Of a stretch of DNA of 64,000 bases, positions 1-60,653 are shown in pieces. Below the pieces are notes generated by a model. That model was not told where the DNA came from. It saw nothing but the letters and a program-made list of their open reading frames with translations, and ran no database searches. The position numbers and the translations under genes were made by a program. How positions within the stretch are numbered: position 1 is the first letter of the stretch; every line of letters starts with the position of its first letter. Origin of the DNA: Kalaharituber pfeilii. Taxonomy: Eukaryota; Ascomycota; Pezizomycetes; Pezizales; Pezizaceae. The stretch is from positions 62,001-126,000 of the forward strand of contig WHUZ01000051.1 of assembly GCA_015179045.1 (NCBI GenBank), in the 5' to 3' direction.

Positions 1-963
1 AGTGAAGTGCAAAATTAACGGAGCCGAATGTCCTACCCGATGCCGAAGTATTGAAATATTTCTGTACTTCAACTGCAAATTCCCGCACCGCAGTATAAAG
101 TTCTTCTAAAGCAGAATCCAACTTGCATCTAAAATCCTCCGCTGTTAAATCTGAATGCAATGTGACCTCCAGCGATGCATCCTTATAGATATGGGCGTAG
201 AATTCACACGTGGCCATGCTATCAATAATGGTTGCAGTTGCCCATTCCAAATTTTCCATTAATTCAACGTAATTGAGGGCGACCTATCATCATGATTAAT
301 TCCAGCTTCATGCAAAATGATTTCATGACTAACGTTCATAATCATCCTAACACTAGCCCACACGAGAGCAGTAGTTTCAGGACTATGCTGTATTGCAACA
401 TCGACAATTGATGCGTAGGTCTCCAAGCCTTTTAGGATCCGACCTATCTTGTCCACTACAGGAACAAGCTCACCATCGCTCTTCTTGTATTTCCACTGCT
501 CCTCTTTGCATTTATCCTCAGCAGACTGTAAATCCTTGATTATAGCTTCAATAGCATTGCGTTGTTTGTTCTCTATCTTCTGCTGAGGAGTTGGAGGGTC
601 TGCTTGCTCCTCCGGTGAATGCGATGTACCGCATGACGAAGAATTTTGGTTGGTATGTAATTGTGCTGATTGTGGTGGTACGGGAGTAGTAACTGTGCAC
701 TCAGATGCCTGTGACTGTTCTTCTTGTGAGGTTATGCGAGGAAGAGCAGGCGTGAGCCTATTAATCGGGGGAGGGGCGCTGCTGGCTCTCAGGTTTCCCT
801 TTTTTCCGACTGGAGATGTCGGTCGAGATAGGTGCGTGTCAAGTGGCGGAGATAAAGTGTCGCGGGTTTTGAAAACTGCCTTGATCCCACGCCCGACATT
901 CAGCGCTTTGTTCTTCAAACTTAAGCGGAACCCCCCTGGACTTCCGGGCTCCGGATTATCCAT
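1..963 (-). CDS. STAND/NLR-like protein, N-terminal part (runs off window)
   Basis: The frame opens with ATG at 963 (MDNPEPGSPGG) and runs to the left edge, so only the N-terminal part is present. Residues 1-130 are Pro/Ser/Thr/Gln-rich and probably disordered. A charged, helical stretch follows (KIENKQRNAIEAIIKDLQ), then blocks 'GRILKGLETYASIVDVA' and 'TTALVWASVRMIMNVSHE', which resemble the N-terminal region in front of NACHT or ankyrin modules in fungal STAND proteins. Near 280-290 the frame must shift by one base: the first frame stops after 'SPSITLN', while the frame with 'VELMENLEWATATIIDSM' stays open to base 1. There is no room for a normal intron there, so this is a real frameshift or an assembly indel. 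The NACHT or repeat domain is not visible. The family call rests on motif resemblance only. Confidence 0.55.
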
Positions 964-1020
964 TGGAAATGCCGTGTCGGGGATTTCACACAATTCTCAG
1001 AGGTATTGAATGCGAAACTT

Positions 1021-21737: not shown

Positions 21738-21744
21738 ACCATTG

Positions 21745-22620: not shown

Positions 22621-22633
22621 ACTTGGAAGCACC

Positions 22634-23293: not shown

Positions 23294-23331
<38 letters not shown>

Positions 23332-24555: not shown

Positions 24556-24558
24556 CCC

Positions 24559-26705
24559 CTAGTCCTTCCAGTCCCTCGCTTCCTCTTCCCTCTCCTCATT
24601 CCCCGGCCTGGAGTCCGTCGTGCATAGCTCCGCTAGCTTCGACGGTGCTTCCACTTCCCGGACGATCGCCCTCGCCTGCGCCCCGTCCAGGACCGCCTCC
24701 ACGTCCTCCACCCCACACACCGCACTCACCCCTCCTACCCCCGCTCCTCTCCCTCCTCCAGCCGCCTTCTTCAACACCTGCAGCTGGACTCTCTCCATCT
24801 CCTTCCTCCATTCCTTCTGTCCCCTCCACCCGATCTCGCTTCCCCACATTGCAACCGCCCTCACCATCCCCGTGTAGGCTTGCCTCCAGCTGCGTGGAGA
24901 CATCCCCCAGTTCCGGTTGCCCAGTCCCGAGAGAGCCCCCGCCAGCCTCCGCGCTCGGCTCAGCCTGTTTCGCCAATATGCGCCAAAGGTCAAGTTCTCA
25001 TCGAAGATGACCCCTAACCACTTCAGCATCTCCCCCTCTTTCTTCAACCTCCTTCCCACCCCGAAGGTTATCATCTCCCACTTCGACTCCTCCAGCGGGA
25101 TCTGGTCTTCCTCCGCCACCTCCGCCATCGCCACCTTCACTTTCTCCCTGAGCCGCCCCATATCCCAGTACCCGTCCCAGTCTAGGATCGTTGCTGCCAG
25201 GTCGTCAACATACGATGGCACTTCTACCTCCGCCCCCATCGCCACCCCCCTCAGCCTTCTCTCCATCTTCTCAATGGTGGGTGCCATGAAGATGAGGAAG
25301 ATGACCGGTGACAGTGGTGACCCTTGCGGAACCCCCACGTTCGACCTGCCCCTCCCTTTCTCCTCGCCGTCCCACCACACTCCGAACTCCCTGCCTCCCA
25401 TAAACTCCTCCAGCCACCTCCGCTTCTTTCTCACCCCCTCGCTCCCCCTCTCCTCAATCCTTCTCAGGACCACCTCCTTCCTCACGATGTTAAAGCCTCC
25501 TTTAACATCCGCCGTCACCCACGCTGCTCTCCCCCCCTGTGCAGGCACCTCTGCACCTTTGTTACCGCCCTCGCCATCGCCTGGATCGCATTCCTCCCCT
25601 TGCGTGCTCCCAGCTGGAGCCTGTGGAAGAGTCGGTCTTCTTTCTGCAGCCTGCTGGCCATGACTTTCTCCCCGATCTTCCCGATACAATTGATCAGGTT
25701 AATTGGCCTCCACGCTTTCGCCGTCTTGATGTCCTTGCCCGGCTTCGGTATCATGACGACCCTCATCTCTCTCCACTCCGCCGGGGTCCTGTTCCGGATC
25801 CAGTTTTCAGCGACCTCCCTCACTAACTCATCCCCGATGGGAGTCTTCAGGGCAGCTTTGATCAATCGGTATCCGATTCCGTCAGGTCCCGGTGCCGAAT
25901 TGTTTTTGGTGCCCTGCAACGCAGCCCTCACTTCTCCTTCTACTCTCTCCCTCTCCCTCTCATCCCCCTCCTCCTCCGCTTCCCCCTCCCCCACCTCCTC
26001 CCCCGCCTCTGCCTCCCCCTCTTCCCTCCACGCAAAATTCCTCTCCACCAACGCCCTCACCTTCTCTCCGTCCCCCTCCAACTCCCTCCCCTCCTCATCT
26101 TTCAACCTTCCCATCCTCTCCTTTCCTCCGAAAGGGTCCTTTGCTACCCTCACCACTCTCCATGGGTCACTGTGCCCCTCCTCTTCCACGAAGTCCCTCC
26201 AGCACCTCTTCTTCTCCTCTCGGATCTTCCACTTCAGCTTCTGTACCGCCGCCTTCCACCCCCTCACTCTCTCTTCCTCTGTTAACCTCGCCCTCGCTCC
26301 CACCCCCCCTCGCGCCAGCCTATTGACTTCTTTCCTCATCTCTTCAATCTCTTCCGTCCACCACCTTTTACTCTTCCCTCCTACCCTTACTTTCTTCTCC
26401 AGAGACTCCTTCCATCGTTTTAGTCTCTCATACCCGCTCCCCTCCCCTACCCTTTCCAGCCACTTCTTCTTCTCTTCGTCTTCCCATTCTCCGCCCCACC
26501 CCTCGACCTCTTTCTCCACCCTTTCCCAATCAATTCTCACCCTCTCTTCCATTTCTCTCCCTCCCTTCTCCTCCTCCCACTCCACTACCAGTCCTGAGTG
26601 GTCTGAGCCCCCTTCCCACAGCTCTACTTGCACCCCTCTACCCCCCTTACCCACACCAAGTCTATTCTCGATTCTCGCACCCTGCCTTCCACTTCTCTCC
26701 TCCAC
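24559..26705 (-). pseudogene. LINE-B ORF2: linker and reverse transcriptase
   Basis: Two overlapping frames, 25515-26705 and 24559-25689, form one RT after correction of a frameshift in the overlap. The upstream part is a Glu/Arg-rich linker (WWTEEIEEMRKEVNRL), then RT block 'SAPGPDGIGYRLIKAAL' and 'AWRPINLINCIGKIGEKVMA'. The downstream part has motif A 'WVTADVKGGFNIV', motif B 'GVPQGSPLSPVIFLIFM' and motif C 'SYVDDLAATI'. Motif C is YVDD, common in fungal LINE RTs. The TAG at its end (DWKD, then stop) cuts off RNase H; it could be TGG mutated to TAG. Confidence 0.85.
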
Positions 26706-27244
26706 GTCCCTACTCTTTCTCCCTTCAAGGTAAAGCCGGCCTCCTCCATTCTCTCCCTCAGTCTCCTACCCTTTCCGTTCTCCCCAGTTCCTTCTAAACT
26801 CCACATCGGGCTATGCGCATTCCAGTCTCCCATGATTACACATCTCCCCTCCACCCTCGTCACCTCTTCCACCCACCCTTCAAACTCCTCCTCCCTCCAC
26901 CCTCCATTAGCATATACTCCCCCAACCAAAACCTCACCCACCCTACCCCATACTACATTCTCTCCCCCCCTCCTCCCCCTCGCACTCCTCTTACTGCTTC
27001 TCTCCCATCCTACTACTCGCGTTCCTGCCCCCACCTCCCCCACCCTCCTCAGGGCTGGATGCCATCCTGTCTTCCACCCGGACTCCTCCTTTCTCTTCCA
27101 AACTTCTCCCTCGAAACCTAACTCCCAACCCTCCTTGAAGATATTCTCCCTCCACACATGTCCTACCACGGACGACCCCCCGACGTGTAGGTACCCCACT
27201 TTCACCATAAGGCTATCGGTACCCCGCTGCTCTCTGCCTCCCAT
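26624..27244 (-). pseudogene. LINE-B ORF2: APE-type endonuclease
   Basis: The endonuclease begins near 27220 ('VKVGYLHVGG') and carries the C-terminal catalytic motifs 'CVIMGDWNAHSPMW' (Asp and His region) and 'RESRIDLVWVRG'. It would nick the target DNA for target-primed reverse transcription. It overlaps the linker/RT frame by about 80 bp, implying a frameshift. Upstream, 27250-27410 reads 'GKLLELEGFLKARKGG' in another frame, possibly the end of ORF1 or the ORF1/2 junction. Confidence 0.75.
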
Positions 27245-27424
27245 CCATCTCCCGGCAGGTCCATATCTCCAAACAAATCTCCCAGCACCACTCGCGGTCG
27301 GTGCCTTGACCCCTCCATATCGTCTCTCTCATCGATCTCCATTCTCTCTCCCCCTTTTCTTGCCTTGAGGAAGCCCTCCAGCTCCAGCAGCTTCCCCTTC
27401 TCGTCCCAGTCTTCCGCGGGGGGC

Positions 27425-27650
27425 GAGAGGCACTCCTCAGATCCCCGGAGGGGAGCGAAGGGGAAGGAGACGAGCTGATGGCACTGATGGGGTGGGTGGA
27501 ACGCTAGAGTTTCATGGAATTGTCTGGGTGTTGGTTTTTCCTTTTCTTTCCTTTTCTTTCCTCTTCCTTTTCTACTTTATCTCCTATGCACCTTAAATAT
27601 CGCCATAGCCCCAATCGCGGCACGCGACTAATGATATATAAAATTGAAAA
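27425..27650 (+). mobile_element. LINE-A 3' fragment split by the LINE-B insertion
   Basis: Plus-strand LINE debris ending with an A-family tail (TCGCCATAGCCCCAATCGCGG ... ACTAATGATATATAAAATTG). Joined to 23225-23294 across the LINE-B insertion it gives a continuous frame ending 'RSPEGSEGEGDELM', with a TAG at 27505-27507, and its DNA resembles the 5' part of the insertion at 2760. Its own target duplication was not found. Confidence 0.6.
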
Positions 27651-28069
27651 AAGTAGCTCCTGCTCTGGAACCAAGGATACCTTCGTGAGCGAGGGCGACT
27701 TTGGAGAGAAAGGCGCAGCAGAGAGAGAATGACGCATTACCGTGTGAGATTTTTTTTACGACGTGGTGGGGTGTGTTTTGGAGTCCACTTGAAACGTAGT
27801 GATGTGCAGTCCTGCCCACTCTGGCACTGTGCAAGGGGGGGCATCTGCATACCCCTCCGAACCCCCTCGGGGACGCGTATGCGTACGGTTCTGTACCATA
27901 GGGTAGACTAGTGTAACGAAACTGGTACAGGTGCTTCTCGGATATTCGTCAGAGCTCTGGGGTGGTAGACTAAGAGAAGTACAGTCCATTAGGCCAGAGT
28001 GCAATGCCACTTATTCAGCGCTGTACGCTGAGATTTACTGTAGCCTATGTCGGCCTTCGCTCCTCGGTA

Positions 28070-28460
28070 TTTTTTGTATTTTTTTTTTTATATCATTACG
28101 CCCCGGGGGCTATGGCGAGGTGCTAAGCACATAGGAGATAGATAGGAAATGGGAAAATTAACATGAAATAACAGTCAAAAAAATCAAACAACTGCTCCGC
28201 TTCTCACATTGTCTCCTTTGCCCACGTCGGCACGGCCACCAGAGTTGTCCCCTTCCTGCTCCCCGGCCTTCGGGGGTTTTCTAGCCGCCGCCTGGCCCCC
28301 TGGCTACATGTCCTGCACCTTCTCCCAGTTGTGCGTTGGCGTCTCCTCCTCCTCCTCCTCGCGCCACTGGCATTCCGGGCTATCCGCTTTCCCTACTCTG
28401 AATTCCCACGCGTTCAGTCCTTTGCCGCCTAATACACCTAGGTATCACCTGCAGGCAGTC
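28070..28460 (-). mobile_element. 5'-truncated LINE-A copy with knuckle remnant
   Basis: Poly(T) at 28076-28089 followed by the antisense A tail (ATATCATTACGCCCCGGGGGCTATGGCGA). Further right, on the minus strand, 'GKGLNAWEFRVGKADSPECQW' parallels 'NKGLKEWRYGIGKAESPECRW' of the LINE at 55.8-57.0 kb. The knuckle cysteines after this point are lost and the frame soon stops. The 5' limit is uncertain. Confidence 0.65.
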
Positions 28461-28531
28461 ATCCTGCGAGCGCCCTGTTATGTACATTTGTATGCCCCGC
28501 AGACTCCGCTCTCAGTTATAGCAATTACAAA

Positions 28532-28593
28532 CCTTGCCATAGCCCATAGGGCGGCAAGCGAGTAATGATATAAAAAAAAAAAAAAAAAAAAAA
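28532..28593 (+). mobile_element. A-tail micro-insertion (62 bp)
   Basis: The 14-bp target duplication ATAGCAATTACAAA lies at 28518-28531 and 28594-28607. The insert begins CCTTGCCATAGCCCATAGGG and ends GAGTAATGATAT plus about 24 A. Confidence 0.92.
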
Positions 28594-28607
28594 ATAGCAA
28601 TTACAAA

Positions 28608-29340
28608 AGTATATTACGCGGCGCCGGCTGTATATCTCGCATGCCATGGCATTACTTCACCGAAATACGAAATTAAAAGAGGTTTCTAGATTTTTGTTAG
28701 CATTCAGCCTTTTCCGTAGTGCAAAGAAAACCATTTATGGGTTCTTTCCCAGGCCTCCCTGGAGTGTATTGAACTGGGCTATGCTACTAGACCAAGGAAC
28801 GACACAGGAGGCTGCAGAATAAATGTTCTACTAATTGCGACTAAAGTACCATTGATATTTGCATGTATTTCACTTCTATGTAGAAAAAAAAGCATATTTC
28901 CCGCCTGTGGCCCATATTTTTACGTTTGATGCACTCGGCACGGGAAGTACTGTAGCATTGAACGTCCACTTTACTTAAGATTGCTGCAACTTTATTCTCA
29001 ACTTTCGGCAAACCTATCACTTCCTTTGCAGAGATTCGACTACCCTATATGGCAATAACATTACTCAGATTAGCATGCTTGGCGTCAGGGCAATACCCCC
29101 GTCAAGGATATGAGTTTATTGCTGAGGAAAAGTTGTAGATAATGTAATTAGTTCATGCAGCAGGCAGTTTGGGAGTAATAAAGAAAACAACAAAGTAAGG
29201 AGCAAGGTAGAAACTTGGTCTTGAGTACCCGCCTGGGAACCGGCGCCCCACCGCACAGCGATTGCCTTGGGTTCAGCCTGCCAGACGGTTGATCATAATC
29301 CGCGCAGATCGTCCTGCCTCGGTGATTAGCCTCTGCACCA
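28608..29340. other. 3' flank of gene A, no gene seen
   Basis: No supported coding region, repeat or RNA gene. The last 120 bp before the stop codon at 29341 are likely 3' UTR of the minus-strand gene. Confidence 0.45.
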
Positions 29341-30955
29341 TTAATCTAATGGGAACAGTTGCATGAGCACCATAAATCCGTCATCCCCGTTCAGGTTCGC
29401 AATAATGCTTCCCCCGACAGCAGCGGCGCCAAAACCTGCTACTGCGCCAACGGTTGCGAGGAGCGGCGCACCCGCCGCTGTCGCGGCACCTGCCATCCCA
29501 ATTCCCTGCAGCATTGCAAACAGCCCTCCCGCCTCGACCACCCCGACGGAAGCCTGCCAGCCTGCAGCTATGCCACCTGCAACAGGGCCTAGGGGTCCAA
29601 ATCCAAGAACTGCCGCCAGCGGGCCTAGAACCAGCACGGGTGCGACCGCAACCGTAAGCAAACCGGCAAAGGCTGCAACGCGGCCCCACGGGAAACCACC
29701 CGGGGCACCACCATGAGGGCCGCCTCCGCCGCCTCCACCACCACCGGGAGGGCCTCCACCACCACCGGGAGGGCCTCCACCACCACCGGGAGGGCCCCCA
29801 CCACCACCGGGAGGGCCTCCGCCACCACCAGGAGGGCCACCCCCGCCTCCTCCGCCGCCACCAGCAGGGCCACCTCCCCCGCCGCCAGGAGGGCCTCCCC
29901 CACCACCTCCGCCTCCACCAGGAGGGCCTCCCCCACCACCTCCGCCTCCACCAGGAGGGCCGTCATCATCGCCGCCTTTATCACCACCAGGGGGGCCGCC
30001 TCCGCCACCTCCTCCGCCCTGCGGCAGACTGACCTTCAACACCAACCGTTCGGATTTCATCGCAAATTGGGTAAAAACCTTCCCACCCCCCAACGCGAGC
30101 AACAGGCCCGCAAGTTGCCAAATTCGGATATCGTTCGCCGGACTACTGTCGCGTGCGTGAACGAAGATGAGCAAGCGCGCTAATGTGAACTTGTACATAA
30201 TCATCCTCGCCTCACTTTCCCTAATTTCCCGCCCGTCAAATTTGATAGGTGATAAAGATGGATAAGGCAATGTACTAGGAAATTGTGGCGGGAAATTTTC
30301 CGAGAAGGTCAGCAGCTTTGTCGCAAGGGGGAATGATTCAAGGTCGTCCTCTAAGTTCCATGATTCGTACTGGACATCCGCAGCGCGTGCAGCTAGGAAA
30401 GACAAAGTTGATCGTATAAAGTCTTCGGCACATTAGTTAGTATAACTGGTTCCGCGCTGTGACCTAGACCTCTCCCGCTTGGGACCCTGGCTTACCAATT
30501 GCATCTTTTTTATAGAAACCTTTTTCACTATGACACGTCTCTACCAGCTTTCCGAATCCAGTGACCAGCTCCTCATCTACCTCTGGAATCTTCATTGACT
30601 GATAAATCTTCAAACGTTCAGAACTCATGTATGTGCCATGCAGTTTCCTCATAAGCCCCTCTCCGCTGTAAAGGTGAATTTCTTTTTCGGCGTTCTCAGG
30701 GGGTGTCAATGTGTATAGATGATCTCCTATAAACCACGAGAGAAACACAGTTAGGTAACAAACACAGTGAGGGAGTCATCAGAAAAGACATTTACCTCTT
30801 TTGCATTGCCGTGGAATAAGAATCTTTTCCAGGGTCAGTTTTGAAACCTTGCCTGGCGACTCTGCTGGGTATTGTATGATAAGCCGCTCAAGATCCCCTT
30901 CTGGATTTACCATCTGTTTGGCCAGATCTTGCACGTTTATTGATGAGGGACCCAT
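29341..30955 (-). CDS. Gene A: ISG12/IFI6-like C-terminal domain protein (480 aa)
   Basis: Three exons: 30796-30955, 30496-30726 and 29341-30392. Introns are 69 and 103 bp (GTAAAT...AG, GTAAGC...AG; the second has a TACTAAC-like branch site), and total coding length is divisible by three. The start MGPSSINVQDLAKQM matches paralogues B and C. Residues 1-255 form an unrecognised region shared by the family ('ERLIIQYPAESPGKVSK', 'MSSERLKIYQSMKIPEVDEE', 'ADVQYESWNLEDD', 'IRIWQLAGLLLALGGGK'). A Gly/Pro tract of about 105 residues follows (258-363). The last 117 residues are a Gly/Ala-rich hydrophobic domain ('GPVAGGIAAGWQASVGVVEA', then 'GGLFAMLQGIGMAG') resembling the interferon-induced 6-16/ISG12 family. 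In animals that family acts at mitochondrial and ER membranes; fungal roles are unknown. The domain call is by eye. Confidence 0.75.
29720..30020 (-). repeat. Gly/Pro-coding in-frame repeat array in gene A
   Basis: Repeats of a (CCACCACCACCGGGAGGGCCT)-like unit, about 24 bp, encode PPGGGGG blocks on the minus strand, with five near-identical units at about 29738-29850 and more degenerate ones to 30010. Paralogues B and C have only a short GRGGGGG linker at this place, so the array expanded in A. Confidence 0.8.
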
Positions 30956-30999
30956 GGTTACCAATATCAAGATTGGGTTATTGAAGATATTTGGGAGCT

Positions 31000-31955
31000 G
31001 TAGCTCGGTAATGTGGTATAGACATTGAAGGACTCTAAGCTGCAGATAAAGATGAGCAATGCGGTCGAACCAGACCATAAATGTGTGAACCTCGACAGTT
31101 TTTATCGCAAGTCAGACCTCGATCCAAATCTCGATTTTTGTCAGAACCTCATGCGAGTGTATGTCAGGCCCCCAATGATGCGCGTCTATAGCTTGTATCC
31201 CAACCCTGCATGCTCCACACCGTGGAAGCTTAACCAAAACTGTCCTAGGTCCTCATATCATAGGCACGTCAGCTGGTGGTGCAAGGGACTCAAGCGCAAG
31301 TAACAAGTAAGAGCTGAACTCACCCATTATCGTGTGGACCGCATGCCGCGGCAGATTTTGATTAGTTTACCTATCGCAAGTCCGAAGCGGCGCTGATCCC
31401 CTTTGCGCTAACTTTTTGCCAAGCACCGTACCTAGCCGACAGGGCACTGTCGAGGAGGAAAGTGGACTAGAGGGAAGAAGGAGTAAATCACTGGAATTGA
31501 ACGAGGTCTATGGATCTGACTTTCTTCAACCTTGTAACGATGATTGTATTGTGTTGCTTATGTTCTACAGAGAAGGCCTCCTCCTCGCCCTCTTGATATA
31601 CCCGTAATTCTCAAGTACCCCCTTCCTCTTTTGGTAGTTTCCCAGTTCGTCAACCCGCCGAACCTTCTAGTACCCTCTCCTCTGGCCTTCCTTTACCAGG
31701 TCACGTGCAATGCCAAGGTCCTCCCCAGGTTTGCGACAGCACTCGTCTTCGTGACTGATAGACCAAATAGATATAGAGTTAGTCAATACCTACGTCGACC
31801 CACGTTGCTTACTCGTTCTAATTGCTGAATTAATCCTCAGCACTGGCCCGAACAATTCACCAATAGGTATATCTTGTAAATTGTCGGGGACATCGATCAC
31901 CGTGCTCATGTACTCGGTATCAAGGGTAAGTCTTCAGAAGCGCGAAAAGTTGCAT
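31000..31955. other. 5' flank of gene A
   Basis: Promoter-side flank with homology to the 5' flanks of B and C (for example GTATGTCAGGCCC with AATGATGC at 31158-31182, compared with 37754 and 42561). It is interrupted downstream by the Tc1/mariner element. No other gene is seen. Confidence 0.5.
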
Positions 31956-31959
31956 ACAA

Positions 31960-33320
31960 TGTGACAGGGGTAGTTGCTAGGATAGAGTCCAGCTGTTTGT
32001 TATGTTATGTTACTTCGGCGCGCATAGTTTCTACACGCTTTGCATTGTTACATGCTTTAATATTTGTTTTCAATTTGCATTTTACTCGCATACCTTCCCA
32101 GTCACGCTGTTGAAGCCTGCATATAGCGAAATGAAAATTCGAGGTACACGCAAAGATCATGGTCACGAAATTCGCAATCGAGAAACCACTCGAGATGAGC
32201 GCGTCCGAATTATCACTTTACGTGATGATGCAAAAATGAAGTGGAAAGAGATAGCAGCTATTGTCAATATAGACTACCGAACATGTGAAGCAATTTATCG
32301 ACGAGCGAAAATACTGGGTACTCCGAGGAATAGAAAAAGAACTGGCCGTCCTATTCTTTTTACCGAAGAAGAGAAGCAGCGTTTGAAGGAGTTCGTTACA
32401 CGAGATCGATATACACGGCGGTTATCCTGGGAGGAAATTAGAGATGCTATGGGATATAAGTGTTCGGCACGTGCGGTCCAAGAAGCGATGAAAAGTATGG
32501 GATATCACAAATGATATCCTCGAAAAAAATGGGGGATTCGAGACGAAAACAAAGTGAAAAGAGTTGCTTGGTGTCAGCGGCACTTACATCTTACCGAGGA
32601 GGATTGGCTGCGTGTTGTTTGGACAGATGAATCTACATACAACACTGTAGGTTTTGGACATCGACCATTGGTAATTTGTAATGCAAGTGAGGAATTTCAT
32701 CCTGATTGCATTGACGAAATATGGGAATCTGGTCGGCAGTCAGTTATGGTATGGGGTGCTTTTTGTGGAGAGTTAAAATCGGATCTTTATTTTGTGCCAT
32801 TTGGTGCGAAACTGGATTCAGCGAAATATACTACTAAAATCTTAGATCCTTTGCTTATACCTTTTTGGCATAAAGCTTGTGAGTTCTATGGATGGACTGT
32901 AGTAATGGAGGATGGTGCACCGGGTCATAAAGGTCATTCAAAAGCATGCCGAGCGAAAAATGGGATGGAATCTTTGGAGTGGGCAGCGCAATCCCGGATT
33001 TAAATCCAATTGAATTGCTTTGGGGTGACATGGAAGTGGAATTGAGTTTACAATATGGGCGTATTAAGGATTTAACGGTACTCAAAGAAAAGCTTCAAGA
33101 AGAGTGGGATAAAATAACCAAAGAGCGGCTCCTGTCATTAGTTAGAAGTATGCCAGACCGGCTTCGAGCTGTTATTGCAGCCGGTGGTAATGCGACACCT
33201 TATTAAATTTTATGCAGTTAAAAATTACGTGTGTCGTACTTTTGTGTGTAAATCCCATACAAAAGTTCTGAAGACTTTTCGACAAAAAGTCCTACCTACT
33301 TCACTTTTGACCCCCTGTCC
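31960..33320 (+). mobile_element. Tc1/mariner element (boundaries approximate)
   Basis: A transposase pseudogene (32131-33206) lies between GTGACAGGGGTAGTTG near 31967 and CTTTTGACCCCCTGTCC near 33307. The latter reverse-complemented reads GGACAGGGGGTCAAAAG, partly similar to the left end. The inverted repeats are imperfect and TA duplications are not clear, so the limits are uncertain. The element interrupts the 5' flank of gene A: sequence matching the flank of C (GCGAGAGCGATTTT...GCTCG) resumes at about 33400. Confidence 0.65.
32131..33206 (+). pseudogene. Tc1/mariner transposase with one stop and one frameshift
   Basis: The N-terminal helix-turn-helix region (MKWKEIAAIVNIDYRTCEAI) is followed by a GRPR-like 'RKRTGRPILF' and a second HTH to 'MKSMGYHK'. 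The DDE catalytic domain has 'VVWTDEST' (first Asp), 'VVMEDGAPGHKG' (second Asp) and 'PDLNPIELLWGD' (third acidic region), ending 'AAGGNATPY'. Two lesions: TGA at 32512-32514, where an Arg CGA is likely (C-to-T at a CpG), and a one-base loss near 32994 in a C run before 'PDLNPIE'. Otherwise the frame is well kept, pointing to recent activity. It would cut and paste the element at TA sites. Confidence 0.88.
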
Positions 33321-33429
33321 GGTGGCGCACATTAGTGCATGCATAGCGCTTCTGAGTATTTTCCCCTGCCCCCGAGTACGCGCCTCTGTCGGTTATAAAG
33401 CGAGAGCGATTTTATTTCCGCTCGAGTTC

Positions 33430-33500
33430 CTTTCTTTTTTTTTTTTTTTATATATTACGTGACCCCGCTTGCAGCTGTTCGCCATGGCAGGGCAAAGAAA
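33430..33500 (-). mobile_element. B-tail micro-insertion (71 bp)
   Basis: The target duplication CCGCTCGAGTTC lies at 33418-33429 and 33501-33512. On the minus strand it reads TTTGCCCTGCCATGGCGAAC ... GGTCACGTAATATAT plus poly(A). It lies in the duplicated 5' flank of gene A and is absent from the matching flank of gene C (43150-43190). Confidence 0.9.
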
Positions 33501-33512
33501 CCGCTCGAGTTC

Positions 33513-34017
33513 AAATAGTCTATAATTGCCAAACCAACATCAGGTGTGAGCGAATAAGTGTGCCAATGCCTGAGGCCGCTGGATATGATTGGCATAAAAG
33601 ACGTAGTATTGTAATTGCTGCTATTGGGCTGTATTTGTTAAACTTTAGGTAGAAGAGATGGTTGTTATTCCTCCGTAGGCAGAGTTGGTGAAGTACCGCA
33701 TCTGGATGCCCGCTCGCTACGCTTGCAACGGGGGCAGAGCTTGCGACGGGGGCAGGAGCAATGCTTGCGACACTCGCGAATCTGAACTTGGGTTCCCTAT
33801 ATATGGGGATAGGACTGCGTGCCCTGGAACCTCGCAACCAGAATCACCGAGGCCCGATCTCAAGCAAAATTTGTGGGTGGATGAAACTCTAACATTTTGC
33901 TAAATCTACCTCGTGAAAAGTGCCCAGCCTGACAATGTTCGCATCCCTAAGTTACACTAACTTAACCATCATCTTGTGAGGCTCGGGGGGCCAAATCAGA
34001 GAAAAATGACTACCTGC

Positions 34018-34049
<32 letters not shown>

Positions 34050-34396
34050 TTTCTTGAATTAATCACAGCTGGCGTATGGGAATTGGTGAAAAAAACTTTT
34101 GTCAGTGTTGCACTGATAGTGGGGATAAGGGCAATAAATGCCAACACTTTTCACTCATAGGCGGGTGCAAATTTTGTTTTTGATATGGTGTTGAGAAATA
34201 GGAGGGATGAACGAGTAGTTAGACACAAGATGTATAGATCTCACTGGTTTGAGTTGTGTGAACATGGTATTGTGCCTACGCGTATAGCAAGAGAAGCTAG
34301 CCGTGACGGCTCGCTGCGACAGCCGCAGTGCAGTATAGGTGCCGTAATTTCATGCACATGGTAGCAGTACGAGGAATGTGTATATCATATAACCTT

Positions 34397-34434
<38 letters not shown>

Positions 34435-35570
34435 TTTGTTTGCTTTTATTATCGCGTTGTAAGATAGACAGAAAATATCCACCACTGCACCGGAGCTGTG
34501 AGAACTACCTTGCGACGTATAAACTATAAAGGTAGCGTTGAATATTACAAGTACTGAATTTCTACTTTCAGTGAGGTATCAATTATAGCGGCGTTCAGGC
34601 TATACCGTTAGCCGGCGACCGGAACCATTCTATTCGATCGATGCGACTTGCAGGTCAACTGGTCGAGCCCCTCTGGGTATTCGATGTCACTTTGAAAAAA
34701 AAATAAAAAAAAAACGTTGGAGTTAAACGGTAAACGCCTGGGTATATTGCTGCTTTTTGATGCGTCTGTTTCCGTCACTTTTGGTATAGCCCAACATTGT
34801 GCAATGTCAGTCGCAATGTTTAAATAATCAGGCTCGAAGTTGTGGGTACGATCCGAAATTCAGAAATTGTTTGCTTGGCGCTAGCGTTGTTTGACTACCG
34901 CATATGGCAAGACGCTACTCAAGTAGTAATTCTTGGCCTTAGAACAATCCCTGTCACTTCCAGAAGAGGCATCCGCTTGTATCGCCTAGGAGAGATTCCG
35001 GATATCTCTGCTTGTAAAGGTCGCACTTGGAAAATTTGACTCAGCGCCAGAGAGATACCTGGGGTGTTCCCAAGAATCTTCACTCTAAAGAAAAATGTAC
35101 TTATGGCTACGTGCAGAAGACGATCTTAGTACGTCTATTAATGGCAATAGAAGAATGACTTGTACAATACCCACTATCAACGTATCCGTAAGTGGCAGTC
35201 ACCTCACGAGCACTGCTTTGTCACGAATAGGCACATGCTCCCAAGCAGGCCACCCCATTCGTAAACTGATCGGCCTCATTCGATGGTAGAGTGTTTTTGT
35301 TTTGAAAATCGCAATGGCCAGTATTCATCCAAGCAAATTCTAAAACCCATTCTCGCAGTAGCTTGTGACATGAGCCTCTGAATCGGTGCCATATCATGGC
35401 ATACTGTAACGGGATATTGTATAGCGAGCCGGGTAAATAGCTTCACGCTAAAAGATGACCTCTGACAAGCATTTCGGGATGTCGGTACAATACATACGGG
35501 TAAAAATGATGCGACCTGAGTGCGTATTGCAGTCTCAAACGTGTATATAAGTGGTGTTCATGGCTGTGTG
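33513..35570. other. No recognisable gene; two bare poly(T) runs
   Basis: 33513-33680 is homologous to 43180-43330 (flank of C). Poly(T) runs at 34021-34049 and 34398-34433 look like poly(A) insertions whose target duplications I could not identify. Short open frames lack support. Confidence 0.45.
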
Positions 35571-35571
35571 T

Positions 35572-35787
35572 TCCCCGTTCCTTTTCTCTTTACGCAACCT
35601 CTTGTATTTAGTTTCTACTAAGTAGAGTGGTTACCTGCTGTGCCGATCCGCTGAACTGCTGTACCGCTGTGAACCGTTGAACCGCCTTGCTGCCGCGAAC
35701 TGCTGAACTGCCGCCTGCCGCCTCCTGCCTGCGCTCCGTAGATCGCCGTCATCCACGGGCCCCAGACCACGTCCGCCGTTACACATA
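35572..35787 (-). repeat. LTR-like repeat, TGTAACGGCGGA end
   Basis: On the minus strand it begins TGTAACGGCGGACGTGG and matches the 21745-22110 repeat in both flanks (GCAACCTCTTGTATT; GCCTGCGCTCC). The central CTGAAC/CCGCTG words are a degenerate form of the 15-bp array there. No target duplication was found. Confidence 0.5.
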
Positions 35788-35959
35788 CTATATGCTCCGA
35801 AATTAACCGAATCCTGACCCTCGTTGGAAAGATTCTGGTGGACTGCACTTAGGTAGGGAATATATTTTTATAAGAAAAAAAAAGGCTGAAAACTTTCAAT
35901 ATCTTTATTGCTGGGATAATTGTTATCCCAGTAGGGCAGTACAAGAGGAATGAATCACC

Positions 35960-36020
35960 CTGCCATGGCCAAGTGCTACAAGCGGGGTTATGTGATTAAA
36001 AAAAAAAAAAAAAAAAAAAA
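35960..36020 (+). mobile_element. B-tail micro-insertion (61 bp)
   Basis: The 16-bp target duplication AGAGGAATGAATCACC lies at 35944-35959 and 36021-36036. The insert begins CTGCCATGGCCAAGTGC and ends GTTATGTGATT plus poly(A). It is absent at the matching site of copy C near 40870. Confidence 0.93.
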
Positions 36021-36115
36021 AGAGGAATGAATCACCGAAAAAGAAAACAATTTGATAACATGATCCATGAAGTGCCATTGTAGAGCAGCAGCGCTGCTTC
36101 CGCCTCAGTTAACCT

Positions 36116-37515
36116 CTACACATGCAATGATAGCAGTTGCAGGACCACCACAAATCCGTCAGCTTCGCTGAAGCTCAAGTTCGAAATAGCAGTTCCTCCC
36201 ATGGCAAGGGCACCAACTCCCGCTACTGCGCCGACGGTTGCGAGAAGCGGCCCGCCCGCCGCTGTCGCGGCACCTGCCATCCCAATGCCCTGCAGCATTG
36301 CAAATAGACCTCCCGCCTCAACCAACCCGACGGAAGCCTGCCACCCTGCCGCTATGCTACCTGCAACAGGCCCTGCGGCTCCAAACCCAAAAGCTGCCGC
36401 TAGCGGGCCAAGAATCAGAACAGGCGCAACCGCAACCGTAAGCAAGCCGGCACATGCTGCAACCGTTCCCCACGGGAAACCGCCTCCTCCTCCTCTACCC
36501 CGCGTCAGGAAGGGCACACTGACCTTCAATACCAACAGTCCGAATTTGAGCGCGAAGTTGCTAAAAGGTTTTTCACCGGCAAGCGCCAGCAACAGGCCCG
36601 CAAGTTGCCAAATCCGGGTATCGTTTGCCGGATTACTTTCGCGTGCATGGAGGAGGATGAGCAAGCGGGCTAATGTAAACTTGTACATCGCCAACCTCGC
36701 CTCATTTTCGCTAAGCTCCCGGCCGTCAAACTTGATAGATGTGGATGGACCCGCGGCTGGAGTTGGAAATTGCGGTGGGAAGTTTCTCGCAAAGGTCTGG
36801 AGCTTTGTTGCAAGGGAGGATGATTCAAGGTCGTTCTCTGTGTTCCATGATTCGTACTGTACATCCGCAGCGCGCGCAGCTAGGGCTGACAAAGATGATC
36901 GTATAAAGTCTTGGGTACATTTAGTCAGTACACCGCACTCATTGGCTTCCGCGCCATGACCTGGACCTTTCCAGCGTAGGGCCTCGACCTACCAGTTGCA
37001 TCTTTAGTATAGGTCGCTTTTTCGCTATGGCACGTCTCTACCAGTTTTCCGAACCCAGTGGCAAGCTCTTTGTCCACCTCTGGAACCTTGATTAACTGAT
37101 ATATTTTCAAACGTTCAGAACTTATGTCTATGGCATGCGGTTTCCTCATAAGTTTTCCCGTGTAAAGTTGGAATTTTTTTTCGGAGTTCGCGGGGGGGTT
37201 AATGTGTATAGACGATCTCCTGGTTTAAACACGGGTGAAACATGCAGTTAGGTCATGAACTCAGTTAGGACTCATTAGGGAAGACATTTACCTATTTTGC
37301 GTTGCCGCGGAATAAGAATCTTGTCCAGAGTCTCTTTTAAAACCTTGCCTGGCGACTCTGCCGGGTATTGTATGATAAGTTGCTCAATGTCCCCTTCCGG
37401 ATTTGCCATCTGCTTGGCCAGGTCTTGCACATTTATTGCGACATGCGAGTATTGAAATAAAAATAAAAAAAAATAAAATAAAAATAAAAATAAAAAATTG
37501 CACATTTATTGGCAT
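36116..37515 (-). pseudogene. Gene B: broken ISG12/IFI6-like paralogue
   Basis: Same three-exon layout as A and C (37292-37515, 36993-37219, 36116-36879). Exon 3 is open and keeps 'GPVAGSIAAGWQASVGLVEA' and 'GGLFAMLQGIGMAG'; the linker is short (RGRGGGGG). Two lesions disrupt the 5' half. A 60-bp A-tail plus 13-bp duplication sits six codons after the ATG. Exon 2 is 227 bp instead of 231, with a 1-nt and a 3-nt loss near 37185 and 37155, which shifts the frame. Splice sites still look normal. It is probably a pseudogene of recent origin. Confidence 0.8.
37438..37497 (+). mobile_element. Ultra-short A-tail insertion in exon 1 of gene B (60 bp)
   Basis: The 13-bp target duplication TTGCACATTTATT lies at 37425-37437 and 37498-37510. 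The insert holds only GCGACATGCGAGTATTG of the A tail and a (A)nT-patterned tail of about 40 bp. It lies antisense in the coding exon. Confidence 0.9.
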
Positions 37516-38164
37516 GGTTGCCGATATCAAGAGTGGATTATTGAAGAATTCTGGGATGGCAGCTGGGGATGTGGTCAATGAATTGAATGATTCAAAGCTG
37601 CGGAGGAAGATGAGCAGTGCGGTCAAACCGGTCCGTGAATAAGTGAACCTCGACAGTATTTAATGCAAGTCAGGCCTCGATAGGAATCCCGATTTTCGTG
37701 AGAACCCCAATGCGAGTGATTGGTTGTTGTTTTGTCTCTCAGCTCTCTTGTCTGTATGTCAGGCCCGCAATGATGCAAGTCTATCGCGCATTACACTCAC
37801 CGTGGTCTTTCCCAAGCCTGCACCCCTTAAGGAATCAGATCAAATGCAGTGTGGAATCTTAACCAAATCTGTCCTAGGCTGTTGTATTGGTAGTGGGAGC
37901 AGAAACCACCATTCGCGCCGCTCTGTTGCAGCGCAAAAATCAAGTGCAAGTGGCAAGTCGTACACTCCACTGAAGGGAAGGCTCAGAGGTTGGTGTGGGC
38001 AGATTTTGTATTCGTGGCTATGGCGAGTCCAAAGCGGCGCTGTGCCCTTTGTACGATGATCGCGCAACTTTGGCCAAGCCAGTGTGCATAGCCGCCAAGC
38101 CGCTCCTATCATGTTATCATATTATGACCGATACACCAACTAGATATGGTTACTGTACCAAACA

Positions 38165-39240
38165 GTGTGGTGTTATTGCTATAGTTTTGATCTAGTTGTG
38201 ATAAGATTATCATGCTAACCGGGTATTAATTGACTTTCACGATTTAATCCATGCATTGGTACAATAATTTCTTAGCAAGAATGATGTATCTGGTGAGTAC
38301 ATATTTCATGAATTAGTATAGGCTAATTCTATAATCCTAACAATTCCATTTGAATCCTGTAATAGTCGGAATATGTACATGCATAACTTTGGTATCTATT
38401 CTGGATGTACCTTAGGTTGTATCATTCATTTTACATTCTCCACTTCCATATACATATAGTATCCTTCTCGCTTTAAGTACATTACTCAGTTGAATTCAGC
38501 AGTTGTCTGGCGCGTTTTTTGTGGTATATATTAGAAGAGATGTATAATACATATATCGGATATATTACATATCATGTATTATAGGTATATTGTATTAGAT
38601 ATTCAATTGTATTTATATACTAAGATATAAAATACATACAAATAATGAGGTATCACTTTTTAAGCAAGCAAAGCTGATACTAGGCGGCCGCCACTAATTA
38701 TACAATCATTAAGTATATGCTTATCCACATATGAATATTTATCCCCATAACCAGCTTCATCCCCATACATATCTGCAATTATCTTTATACATTCATAGAA
38801 ATCTGCTAAAGTTACCTAAATAGAACCCAGTAGTTAGAAAGGATAGAATGACTCAGCGCTGTCTTTAAGTTTTATACATACTGGGGGTGTACTTTGTTAG
38901 AACGATATGAATCTAGCCCCTCATTCATGTATGACTGTAAAAGTTGCAGCATAATAGTTGTACTGATAGACAGTTGAGAGAAGGCGATAGGGAGATAAAT
39001 GGGCCAATGGGGAGGCGATGGATTCTAGTGTGAAATAGAGAACTATACTTCTTATATATCCTGTGCAGTAGATTAGTTAGCTAGAATCTTTCACTGCAGT
39101 AATAATGCACTTACATGTCAGAATCTTTTTGCCAGCATGAGATAGAAAGGATCTAAAAGTTATATAGAATTAGATAATTATTAGCCATTGAATAGAATAT
39201 CATTGCAGAGCAAAAACTTACTCAAATTTGCTCAATGACA
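38165..39240. other. AT-rich, gene-free stretch
   Basis: AT-rich sequence with many TATA/ATAC words between copies B and C of the duplication. No open frame with support and no clear transposon ends. Confidence 0.5.
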
Positions 39241-39244
39241 TTGG

Positions 39245-39765
39245 CTATTTGAGCTTAAACAGTAGGCTCAGAACGGAGGGCTGTAATAGGCTCAGAATGT
39301 AGGGGGATAGTGTAACGGATGGTGGTAAACGCAGAGAGTTATCGTCCGCCAGGCCAAAAAGACGCTTGACCAGTGATACTCGCTAGTCCTCTGTGTAGCT
39401 CATATAGCACATTTCACGACTGTGACGCCGGCGGCTGTCGCATATCGCCTACATCGCATATGCGCATACTGCGCGCGCGCATCCACCGACTGCCCGCCCT
39501 ATGGTTGCGGTGAATCCGTAACAGATAGGCTCAGAATGTAGGCCTATAATAGGCTCAGAATGGAGGGCTATAATAGGCTCAGAATGTAGGAGGATAGGCT
39601 CAGAATGTAGGCCCGTAATAGGCTCAGAATGTAGGGGAAAACCTCAGAACGTAGGCTGTAATAGACTTAGAATAGAGGGCTGCAATAGGCTCAGAACGTA
39701 GGCCTGTAATAGGCTTAGAATGGAGAGTTGTAATAGGCTCAGAATAGAGATCTATAATCTTATTA
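39245..39765. repeat. Minisatellite, ~27 bp unit
   Basis: Imperfect tandem units built on TAATAGGCTCAGAATGTAGG (variants ATGGAGGGC, AACGTAGGC), about a dozen copies. A 213-bp solo LTR splits the array at 39311-39523. Not a CRISPR: there are no unique spacers and this is a eukaryotic context. Confidence 0.85.
39311..39523. mobile_element. Solo LTR (213 bp) with 5-bp target duplication
   Basis: It starts TGTAACGGATGGTGG and ends GTGAATCCGTAACA, i.e. the TG...CA boundaries and short inverted ends (TGTAACGGAT / ATCCGTAACA) of an LTR. GATAG is duplicated on both sides (39306-39310, 39524-39528). No internal retrotransposon region remains, which fits LTR-LTR recombination. Confidence 0.75.
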
Positions 39766-39984
39766 GTGGTATATTCTTAAGAATATTGATGTTGATACCT
39801 TTCAAATGATTAGAATCTCTAGGCAGAAATCAAGATCCCTTAAGCTAACATACCATTGTGAGAGAAGGGAGGAAGAAGACCTACTAGCTCTTCAGACAAA
39901 CTCTGTGAAACTGTTTTATCACGTTGGGACCTGAAAATCCCAGATCTAGAGAATAAGTTGGCTATGAGAAAGTATAGAGGGATA

Positions 39985-40440
39985 GCCATGTGGAGAACAA
40001 CTGCTTCGTGTTGAAGAAGCTGGGGGTGGTGGAATCGGATAGATGCAGGTATGGGGACGTGCAAACGGGGGGAGTATCTCGCTTTCTGATGCAGATTTTT
40101 TTTTTTTTTTTTTTTTTTTATTTCATTAATCGCATGCCGCCTCGAAGGCTATGGCGATGTTTTAGATACATAATGTGAAATGAGAATGAAAAGAATAATA
40201 TGAAAAACTGAGATATCCCCGCCCGCTCTAAGTCCCAAGTTTACTCTTTCCCCGCCCAGTCCAATATCTCCGCCATGTTGATGTCTTTGTCCGGATGTGT
40301 GATTCTGATGCAGAAGCTAGGAGAACCGTCCAGAAGGTTTTGAGAGGTGGAGTGACATGGGAAAGAATTGGAAAAGAAAGGCGGAGAATGGGGAGGAATA
40401 TGACATTTTAGAGAATTTCTTCGCTGGGATCAAGTTCTAG
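39985..40440 (+). pseudogene. LINE-B RNase H C-terminal fragment
   Basis: 'KLGVVESDRCRYGDVQTGG' matches the LINE-B knuckle region 'RMGVAESEKCSCGEAQTG', and the end 'NWKRKAENGEEYDILENFF' then 'AGIKF' matches 'NWKRTAENGEEWDELERFF', 'SGIRF'. Stops and frameshifts are present. It is split by an A-family insertion at 40096-40304. Confidence 0.8.
40096..40304 (-). mobile_element. 5'-truncated LINE tail, A family (209 bp)
   Basis: The target duplication CTGATGCAGA lies at 40086-40095 and 40305-40314. Antisense A tail next to poly(T) (ATTTCATTAATCGCATGCCGC), then about 140 bp of LINE 3' UTR. Nested in a LINE-B fragment. Confidence 0.88.
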
Positions 40441-40839
40441 AAGGTAGGAGAAGTAGCTGCCTATACTAGGTAGCCGGCAACTGTGAACTTGTCGGCTATT
40501 AGCAGCCAAATACCTGTCTATAGATTGCATAGCAAAGTGTATGAATACCATATGTAATGATGATAATATTCAATATTCAATTTAGTACAAAGCACATTAC
40601 GAAATGGCTATGGCTGTACTAGCACTATAAGATTTGGGCATATTTTACAAACTGCACCAGTATGTAATGCAGACAGTACCGGACAAATTCGGGGAAAGTG
40701 TATGTACGCCAAGTCGGCTTTATTTATGGCTGGCAACTTTTGAATTTGAAATTCACTAATGTAATCTGGTAGTTCCGTTAAGCTATGATGCATACCGAAG
40801 TAATAACACCGCACTTTTTGGTACAGTATGTACGTAATT

Positions 40840-43330
40840 GTTATTCCAGTAGGGCAGTACAAGAGGGATGAATAACCGAAAAAGAGAACAATTCGATAAC
40901 CTGAGCCAAGAAGTGCCATTGTGGAGCAGCAGCGCTGCTTCCGCCTCAGTTAACCTCTAAAAACAATCAATGCAATGATAACAGTTGCAGGACCACCACA
41001 AATCCGTCAGCTTCGCCCATGTCCGAAATAACACTTCCTCCCATGGCAAGGGCACCAACTCCCGCTACTGCGCCGACGGTTGCGAGAAGCGGCGCGCCCG
41101 CCGCTGTCGCGGCACCCGCCATCCCAATGCCCTGCAGCATTGCAAATAGACTTCCCGCCTCAACCAACCCGATGGAAGCCTGCCACCCTGCCGCTATGCT
41201 ACCTGCAACAGGCCCTGCGGCTCCAAACCCAATAGCTGCCGCTAGCGGGCCAAGAACCAGAACAGGCGCAACCGCAACCGTAAGCAAGCCGGCACATGCT
41301 GCAACCTTTCTCCACGGGAAATCGCGGGGCTGCGGGGCAGGAGTTACTGCACCGCTACCTAGAGTACCACTAGGGGCACCGCCTCCTCCTCCTCTACCCC
41401 GCATCAGAAAGGGCACACTGACCTTCAATACCAACAGTCCGAATTTCAACGCGAAGTTGCTAAAAGGTTTTTTACCGGCAAGCGCCAGCAACAGGCCCGC
41501 AAGTTGCCAAATTCGGGTATCGTTTGCCGGTTTACTTTCGCGTGCATGGAGGAGGATGAGCAAGCGGGCTAATGTAAACTTGTACATCGCCAGCCTCGCC
41601 TCATTTTCGCGAAGCTCCCGGCAGTCAAACTTGATAGATGTGGATGGATCCGCGGCTGGAGTTGGAAATTGCGGTGGGAAGTTTTCCGCAAAGGTCTGGA
41701 GCTTTGTTGCAAGGGAGGATGATTCAATGTCGTTCTCTGTGTTCCATGATTCGTACTGCACATCCCCAGCGCGTGCAGCTAGGGCTGACAAAGATGATCG
41801 TATAAAGTCTTGGGTACATTTAGTCAGTACAACGCACTTATTAGCTTCCGCGCCATGACCTGGATCTTTCCAGCTTGGGACCTCGACCTACCAGTTGCAT
41901 CTTTAGTATAGATCTCTTTTTCACTATGGCACGTCTCTACCAGTTTTCCGAACGCAGTGGCAAGCTCCTCATCCACCTCTGGAACCTTGATTGACTGATA
42001 AATTTTCAAACGTTCAGAACTTATGTATATGGCATGCGGTTTCCTCATAAGTTCTCCTCCTCTGTAAAGTTGGATTTCTTTTTCGGAGTTCGCAGGGGGG
42101 GTTAATGTGTATAGACGATCTCCTGGTTTAAACGCGGGTCAAACATGCTGTTAGTCATGAACTCGGTAGGACTCATCAGGAAAGACATTTACCTCTTTTG
42201 CGTTGCCGCGGAATGAGAATCTTGTCCAGAGTCACTTTTGAAACCTTGCCTGGCGACTCTGCCGGGTATTGTATGATAAGACGCTCAACATCCCCTTCCG
42301 GATTTGCCATCTGCTTGGCCAGGTCTTGCACATTTATTGACATGGTTGCCGATATCAAGAGTGGATTATTGAGAGAATGTGGTCAACAAATTGAAGGATC
42401 CTAAGCTGCGGAGAAAGATGAGCAGTGCGGTCGAACCGGACCGTAAATGAGTGAACCTAGACAGTATTTATCCCAAGCCAGGCCTCGATAGGAATCCCAA
42501 TTTTCATGAGAACCCCAATGCGAGTGATTGGTTGTTGTTTTGTCTCTCAGCTCTCTTGTCTGTATGTCAGGCCCGCAATGATGCAAGTCTATGGCGCATT
42601 GCACTCACCGTGGTCTACTAAGGAATCAGATCAAATGCAGTATGGAATCTTAACCAAATCTGTCCTAGGTTGATGTATCATAGGCACGTCAGCTGGTAGT
42701 GGGAGCAGAAACCACCTTCACGCCGCCCTGCTGCAGCGCAAAATCAAGTGCAAGTGTCAGAGGTTGGGGTGGGCAGATTCTGATTCGTAGCTAAATGGCA
42801 AGTCTGAAGCGGCGCTGTGCCCTGTGTGCGATGATTGCTCAACTTTTGCCAAGCCAGTGTGCATAGCCGACAAGGCTACCATATTGGGACTGATCCACCA
42901 ACTAGATATGGTTAGTCAATACATCAACCCGCATTGCGTACCCGCTGAATAATTCTCGGCAGTGTGAGCACAGGCATGATCAACCATTCGCCGATAGCAA
43001 TGGTAGGTATATCGTTCGACAGAATGAGCTGAATGAGCCAGCAAGTCAACTGTTGGATTAATATTCCTGATTTGGGAACAACTTGATTGCCGCAACCTCC
43101 ATCGCTGCGCTTATGCAAGCGCTCTCCAGGCAAGCTCTCAAGATATAGAGCGAGAGCGATTTTCATTTTCGCTCGGGGTTCAAATTGGCTATAAATACCA
43201 AGCGGACATCAGGTGTGAGCGACTACCAAAGCCTTGAGACTGCTAGGTATAAGTTGGCATACAAGGCGTAGTACTGTAATGTTGCTATTGGGCTGTGATT
43301 GTGATACTTTAGGTTGTTATACCTCCGTAG
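40840..43330. repeat. Segmental duplication copy C (pairs with 35905-38160)
   Basis: Direct-orientation duplicate of the B segment, including the 3' flank (GAAGTGCCATTGTGGAGCAGC), the gene and about 900 bp of 5' flank. The distal part (from about 42880) also matches the flank of gene A (33400-33680), so A, B and C arose by successive local duplications. Confidence 0.8.
40967..42343 (-). CDS. Gene C: ISG12/IFI6-like C-terminal domain protein (397 aa)
   Basis: Three exons, 42193-42343, 41892-42122 and 40967-41778, with introns of 70 and 113 bp; total coding length 1194 bp, divisible by three and free of stops. The start MSINVQDLAKQMANPEGD agrees with A and B. The N-terminal 260 residues are the family's unrecognised region (ERLIIQYPAESPGKVSK; SSERLKIYQSIKVPEVDEEL; TRIWQLAGLLLALAGKK). 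The linker 'RGRGGGGGAPSGTLGSG' replaces the long Gly/Pro tract of A. The last 117 residues form the hydrophobic Gly/Ala domain with 'FGAAGPVAGSIAAGWQASIG' and 'SLFAMLQGIGMAGAATAAG', close to ISG12/6-16 proteins. It is probably membrane-inserted. No signal peptide is evident. It is the cleanest intact member. Confidence 0.78.
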
Positions 43331-59975: not shown

Positions 59976-60653
59976 TCAGCTACAAACATTCCTCCATTTA
60001 ACTAGGCCAATAACAGTCTGCACTGCCAAATATACCCTGTGCTGGTTCAAGACCTTATAGCAGTTGATTTCGCCTCTCCAATGGCTGGCCAACCCGACCA
60101 ACCTATCGACATCACTTAAACCTCTATCAATGAACCGCCCATCATTGATGCAAACCTCATCATTGAAATTTCCATAATGAACCCCATATTTTGCAAGCAT
60201 TGAGCGTAATCGCGTTACCAATCCATATTCAACCCTCTTGTTGAACTCATCCCCTTCGCTGGCATGGTGGTAACGTTCCGGATATGGTTTTGATCCATAC
60301 ATCCAACGCAATAGTTCCTCCAGATCGTGGTCAAAGTCATGCATACGCTCAGGGGGAATTGCAAGAAGTTCGCAATAATCAGCATTTCCAATAGAGACCC
60401 CATGAACACTTCCGGAGGAAGCACTTGTTCCGCTGGTATTAGCGAGCCGTTGAACCTCCATGGCCAGTCGTTCATTCTCCGCTGCCAGTCTCTGATTCTC
60501 GGAGTTCAACCTGCTATTCTCTCCGATTATTGCTCCCACATGTACTCGCTCATCGATGACTCAAAGAAACAGTTAGATAAAATCCCTGTGCAAGGAAAAA
60601 TAATACTTACCACTTGTATCAGCATTGTCAGGAGTTTTGCGACCCTCTGCCAT
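59976..60653 (-). CDS. Leucine-zipper-like coiled-coil protein (208 aa, 2 exons)
   Basis: Exon 1 60611-60653 (MAEGRKTPDNADTS), a 51-bp intron with GTAAGT donor and CTAAC branch site, then exon 2 59976-60559; the coding sum (627 bp) is divisible by three. Residues 24-50 form a heptad coiled coil ('NSRLNSENQRLAAENERLA', leucines seven apart) without a basic DNA-binding stretch in front, so it is not a normal bZIP. A Ser/Gly linker and a conserved-looking globular part follow ('DFDHDLEELLRWMYGSKPYP', 'RLRSMLAKYGVHYGN', 'GLASHWRGEINCYKVL'). I do not recognise that domain. The frame is intact. A dimer-forming protein is likely, its role unknown. Confidence 0.65.

Follow-up and report, generated by a model that had tools for sequence, protein, structure and literature searches.

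A stretch of 64,000 nucleotides from the genome of the desert truffle Kalaharituber pfeilii, a Pezizomycete, carries a locally duplicated gene family whose intact members join an N-terminal domain to a C-terminal domain of the Ifi-6-16 (PF06140) type. This whole stretch, hereafter the window, corresponds to positions 62001-126000 of contig C308 in an assembly of 78 Mb and 360 contigs; coordinates are those of the window unless a contig is named. The three copies, named A, B and C, all lie on the minus strand. Gene A (29341..30955) has exons at 30955-30796, 30726-30496 and 30422-29341 and encodes 490 residues, and gene C (40967..42343) has exons at 42343-42193, 42122-41892 and 41808-40967 and encodes 407. 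The last exon of A ends at 29341 and the start codon of C lies at 42343, exactly the limits given to the region in a preliminary description of this DNA. Both three-exon genes are open after splicing of GT..AG introns of 69, 73, 70 and 83 nt, as had been proposed. The model of C is identical, letter for letter, to the deposited protein BDZ91DRAFT_738264; that of A is contained in BDZ91DRAFT_851357, a deposited model of 531 residues whose predicted start lies 41 codons upstream, which gives it an N-terminus longer by 41 residues.

The N-terminal region of about 255 residues and the C-terminal region of 117 residues that had been described are both present. The architecture consists of an N-terminal domain of about 260 residues, a Gly/Pro linker, the Ifi-6-16 (Ifi) domain and a short hydrophobic tail. 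On the minus strand of A, the linker between the two domains occupies 29699..30009, where the repeat family D1 and the translation reveal a Gly/Pro-rich repeat, and the Ifi domain with the C-terminal tail forms the last 117 residues (29344..29694). The Ifi domain and hydrophobic C-terminal tail of C are encoded at 40970..41320 (minus strand).

Gene B (36116..37515) is a decayed copy. Its exon 1 is interrupted by an A/T-rich insertion between direct repeats, exon 2 carries a one-base deletion and the reading frame ends after 43 codons, so that only exon 3 (36909-36116), with the Ifi domain at 36125-36478, is open. The duplication claimed for A, B and C is real, but B does not count as an intact member. 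Short A/T-run insertions between direct repeats, SINE-like (short interspersed nuclear element) by eye, were seen both in exon 1 of B (37438-37507) and in intron 1 (L007) of G, another family gene described below. The interval between A and B contains interrupted transposase-like frames (31981-33206), Tc1/mariner-like by eye; HTH_23 reaches 24.8 bits there for a Pfam cut-off of 24.6, and a Tc3-type HTH match falls under its own cut-off.

The C-terminus had been said to resemble the ISG12/IFI6 family, and comparison with the PF06140 profile, whose curated cut-off is 29.1 bits, bears this out. Protein C scored 37.9 bits as a whole and 42.0 bits as the domain alone (E 8.7e-11). The domain of A scored 32.7 bits alone and 33.9 bits in a scan of the genome, in which B reached 36.4 bits and D and E, two further copies, 37.6 bits. 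In A-E, the stretch that aligns to the profile above the cut-off is about 80 residues long. The scan matched 10 loci, 7 of which pass this threshold, namely A-E and two more. The whole protein A matched no Pfam family, probably because of its Gly/Pro linker.

Gly and Ala make up 38-42% of the Ifi domain in A, C and E (29-30% in the family genes F and G), and hmmsearch applied bias corrections of 28-32 bits to A, C and E. These values are what one would expect if the C-terminus were Gly/Ala low-complexity sequence owing its Pfam score to composition. Because of this richness in Gly and Ala, we built a control hidden Markov model (HMM) from 11 Ifi domains having other N-termini, and scored each sequence along with 500 shuffles of itself. 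Corrected scores were 50.9 bits for A, 66.4 for C, 51.7 for E, 40.4 for F and 26.6 for G, while the best shuffles reached 1.5, -0.7, 5.1, 8.5 and 7.5, respectively. The 51-66 bits of A, C and E thus stand against a shuffle maximum of 5.1. P0004, a relative from a public assembly, and L012, L014 and L017, other Ifi loci of the truffle, likewise beat all their shuffles, the highest maxima being those of L012 (15.0) and L017 (12.3). The test took in these sequences and A, C, E, F and G, leaving out B and D; the relatives used to train the HMM had been found with C as query, which makes it a composition control more than an independent discovery. The low-complexity explanation is largely refuted and hardly credible any longer.

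Among 177,635 sequences of the PDB (E ≤ 5), a family profile made from an 11-row alignment, one row of which is the C N-terminal piece, found a sole match, human IFI27L1 (2loq, E 8.9e-4); 2loq was not found among these sequences with the single C domain as query. By hydropathy, transmembrane-like 19-mers occur within the Ifi domain, with fewer in F and G. Members of the Ifi-6-16/FAM14/ISG12 family such as human IFI6, IFI27, IFI27L1 and IFI27L2 resemble A-E in their match to the Pfam profile and in their hydrophobic Gly-rich segments. In contrast, IFI6 is small (130 residues, as given in PMC9923010) and has no such N-terminal domain, whereas the truffle proteins of 407-490 residues also possess a linker rich in Gly and Pro and a tail at the C-terminus. 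The truffle proteins are fusions containing an Ifi domain, not ISG12 orthologues.

The N-terminal domain is predicted by AlphaFold2 with a mean local confidence (pLDDT) of 80.0 and a predicted template modelling score (pTM) of 0.85, suggesting that it can fold separately. It had been left unassigned, and we found no Pfam family over cut-off, Topoisom_I_N appearing at just E 0.11 with the piece and 0.25 with the whole of C. The two NCBIfam matches (E 0.039 and 0.24) were far under cut-off, PADLOC gave no match in four proteins at E ≤ 1, and comparison of the model with PDB structures gave no significant fold match. A homology search with the N-terminal region of C alone found three proteins, P0001-P0003, at E ≤ 0.1. 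This search is insensitive, since it missed P0004, which aligns over 98% of C, and absence of the domain elsewhere does not follow from it. The N-terminal part of exon 3 of C matches five loci, A-E, and that of F matches F and G only; the N-terminal domain therefore has two diverged branches.

A genome search with the A domain as query gave seven family loci, namely A, B and C on C308, D and E on contig C20, F on C302 and G on C135, which confirms the multi-copy fungal family that had been suspected. The gene models of E, F and G are those of deposited proteins. A protein search with F returned the deposited F and G alone at E ≤ 0.1, and a search with C returned 22 proteins, P0004-P0009 being relatives from public assemblies. 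In P0004 (430 residues), 98% of C is aligned at 44%; P0005-P0008 cover 58-69% of C and P0009, whose N-terminus has diverged, just 23%. To date, the two-domain family is known from this truffle and public assemblies. The tail following the Ifi domain has 6 or 7 hydrophobic residues out of 8 in P0001-P0009 and 5 out of 8 in F and G, a value that some of the other 13 proteins equal, P0021 and P0022 reaching 6.

Ratios of non-synonymous to synonymous substitution (dN/dS) were calculated by the Nei-Gojobori method. The dN/dS was 0.38 between C and A (0.37 in the N-terminal domain and 0.39 in the Ifi domain), 0.37 between C and D, 0.48 between D and E from just 15 changes, and 0.30 between F and G, a rough figure at a synonymous distance of 1.23. 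For C against exon 3 of B it was 1.04. Purifying selection acts on both domains of the intact pairs, and B evolves neutrally. The decay of B, together with the transposon-like frames and SINE-like insertions that crowd the locus, could indicate recent duplicates heading for loss and devoid of current function. Against this, the open models of A, C, E, F and G agree with deposited proteins and the dN/dS of C-A, C-D and F-G is 0.30-0.38, which makes such a fate very improbable for the family.

Four further Ifi loci in the truffle genome, L012, L014, L015 and L017, have the Ifi core in common with A-G but, unlike them, are not matched by the family N-terminal exons. By eye, they also share an intron at one common position in the Ifi core (after V-x-A-G or a similar motif), which A-G lack. 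Other Ifi proteins, from fungi or from public assemblies, carry the domain after a longer N-terminal region, as in the truffle family. In P0010-P0014, P0017, P0018, P0021 and P0022 (9 of the 22 proteins, or 9 of the 24 examined for the motif), among them proteins of Neophaeococcomyces, Arthrobotrys and Orbilia, the Ifi domain is preceded by the segment F-A-(L/V)-G-x-L-x-Y-(E/Q), which we take to be kinase subdomain IX, and a kinase C-lobe-like N-terminus stands in place of the truffle N-terminal domain. A Pfam kinase scan, which left out P0011 and P0013, gave weak matches below cut-off in five of the seven motif proteins scanned (best E 6.3e-4) and none in the other two. Other fungal N-termini include a luciferase-annotated domain, and the database annotations comprise PF17648 on P0016 and PF01602 on P0020. 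The Ifi domain has therefore been combined with several N-termini, an arrangement that fits a membrane module with swappable regulators. The succession of a kinase C-lobe-like segment and an Ifi domain recalls MLKL, in which a pseudokinase is combined with a membrane domain.

ISG12/Ifi-6-16 proteins are interferon-induced in animals, and their action on membranes is debated. Animal IFI6 resides in membranes of the endoplasmic reticulum (ER) and hinders flavivirus replication organelles, according to PMC8228428. On the basis of the domain family and hydropathy, the truffle Ifi domain probably inserts in a membrane inside the cell, just as its animal relatives insert in those of the ER or mitochondria, and the N-terminal domain would then be cytosolic. 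We tentatively read A, C and their intact homologues as regulated membrane-acting stress or defence proteins. The N-terminal domain would sense or receive a signal and control the action of the Ifi domain on the membrane, be it remodelling or weakening, and this control might form part of a response to stress, virus or non-self, a scheme that we consider possible but put forward with reserve. It is conjecture that the N-terminal domain has a regulatory part and that the proteins serve in defence, as is the idea that the tail may dock on the sheet of the N-terminal domain and act as a latch. The "membrane-acting effector system" of the preliminary description is possible by analogy with the domain family. 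Cell death is one competing account and not the default one.

It is also possible, though somewhat less likely, that the Ifi domain is simply a constitutive membrane anchor and that the N-terminal domain does an ordinary organelle job, as an adaptor or in trafficking or lipid handling, with no part in cell death or as an effector. Purifying selection with no sign of conflict is in agreement with this. The truffle genome contains Ifi loci devoid of this N-terminal domain, so that an Ifi domain need not mean defence, and the nearest intact-looking NOD-like receptor (NLR) gene is 28 kb off. On the other hand, the local duplication, the decay of B and the apparent lineage restriction, which is subject to the limited sensitivity of the searches, are more usual in fast-turnover families.

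The family had been described as lying near NLR-like and ankyrin genes. The ankyrin gene is indeed close, about 5 kb from C: a frame with 15 PF00023 stretches and, upstream of it, hydrophobic frames lacking a Pfam match occupy 47425-53051 and look by eye like one gene. The NLR part of the claim is weak. The NLR gene to the left (C308:58282-62996), 28 kb from A, has a NACHT domain (50.4 bits) and WD40 repeats, both outside the window; only its 5' part enters the window (1..996, minus strand). The match of its N-terminus to DUF7708 is under cut-off. To the right, about 128.3-131.9 kb on the contig and 24 kb from C, is an NLR gene with in-frame stops. Since the 78 Mb genome contains at least 98 NACHT matches, a count that is itself a lower bound, proximity to an NLR says little alone, and we rejected the neighbourhood as strong support.

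The left NLR belongs to a clade with members on other contigs. Identity to its N-terminal region is 83-95% in C293, C18, C296 (two pieces) and C20; the next-scoring match is 49% over 183 residues, with short pieces elsewhere at up to 64%. Gene K (59976..60653, minus strand), with two exons in our model, 208 residues and a heptad-like N-terminus, may be an associated gene. No Pfam family matches it over cut-off, and its genome matches fall in eight rows, with a single row on C308, six on C20, of which three are adjacent pieces, and one weak row on C312. Members of this NLR clade, as well as gene K, are found close to family genes both on C308 and on C20. On C20, the interval 9983-29218 (L029, L030, L041) is arranged as a mirror image, E and D being in opposite orientation with K copies on both outer sides and a HET frame in between; an NLR with in-frame stops lies about 18-22 kb from D. 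Assuming independent loci and a distance of 30 kb, a post hoc estimate gives a chance of about 1.5e-5 that random placement would put the NLR clade close to family genes on both contigs. Among the NACHT matches listed by the scan, again a lower bound, none is on the contig of F and the nearest on that of G is about 158 kb off. Retained linkage, gene conversion and mixing in a fast-evolving compartment are candidate accounts of the linkage on C308 and C20.

The presence of genes of the NLR clade close to family members on two contigs, the hydrophobic Ifi domain and the HET frame between D and E could be taken to mean that the proteins are cell-death executioners comparable to HeLo or gasdermin proteins, a nearby NLR activating them and the Ifi domain permeabilising membranes. 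However, the NLR on C20 has in-frame stops, and the abundance of NACHT matches makes proximity cheap. The HET match is borderline (22.7 bits for a cut-off of 22.5) and absent from the seven rows of the genome HET scan at E ≤ 0.001; we rejected this gene as a partner, its Pfam score being borderline only. No HeLo, HELL or gasdermin Pfam match was found in A and C (E ≤ 1) or in F and G (E ≤ 10), and PMC9923010 reports IFI6 as anti-apoptotic. Such a role is unlikely. Fungal HeLo/MLKL-like and gasdermin proteins resemble the truffle family in nothing more than the broad principle of a membrane domain under regulation; in the truffle family this domain is C-terminal.

Several observations weigh against the stress or defence role that we tentatively favour. 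The C20 NLR was judged broken because its NACHT part is spread over several frames, although stops can also mark introns, and a working sensor partner is thus not evident on that contig. Comparison of C308 with C20 gave synonymous distances of 0.16-0.17 for the NLR, 0.38, 0.54 and 0.59 for the K copies and 0.76 for the Ifi genes C and D; the three were therefore not copied together in one event, and we rejected their duplication in a single step. F, at 10.9 bits, falls short of the PF06140 cut-off, and G does not match the profile. In the full-length AlphaFold2 model, residues 262-407 (linker and Ifi domain) have a pLDDT below 50, too low to support helical packing. The dN/dS values of 0.3-0.4 are ordinary, with no sign of diversifying selection. 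Finally, the main texts of PMC9815663, PMC12881547, PMC10197012 and PMC12258605, which deal with NLRs, immunity or cell death in fungi, do not name the Ifi domain or its accession.

Among the open-licence PMC papers listed, we found no functional study of the Ifi domain in fungi and one paper with PF06140, in a secretome table. We conclude that the truffle family represents a new architecture of a known membrane-domain family, one for which we found no earlier fungal description. A fungal Ifi family with its own N-terminal domain, and relatives with others, offers a comparative handle on the role of the Ifi domain without interferon. In a broader and frankly speculative extension, which we think improbable as a whole, Ifi-6-16 would give fungi one more type of membrane effector in addition to HeLo/MLKL-like domains and gasdermins, under exchangeable N-terminal regulators that might be a new fold here and kinase remnants elsewhere; animal ISG12 would have descended, in reduced form, from this older and modular system of membrane defence, for which the NLR clade and K near A-E would provide the sensor and regulator.

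Elsewhere in the window, a DUF4360 protein (PF14273, E 2.5e-35) is encoded at 17284-18093, and frames at 23584-27365 and 55967-57166 look by eye like pieces of retrotransposons without long terminal repeats (non-LTR).

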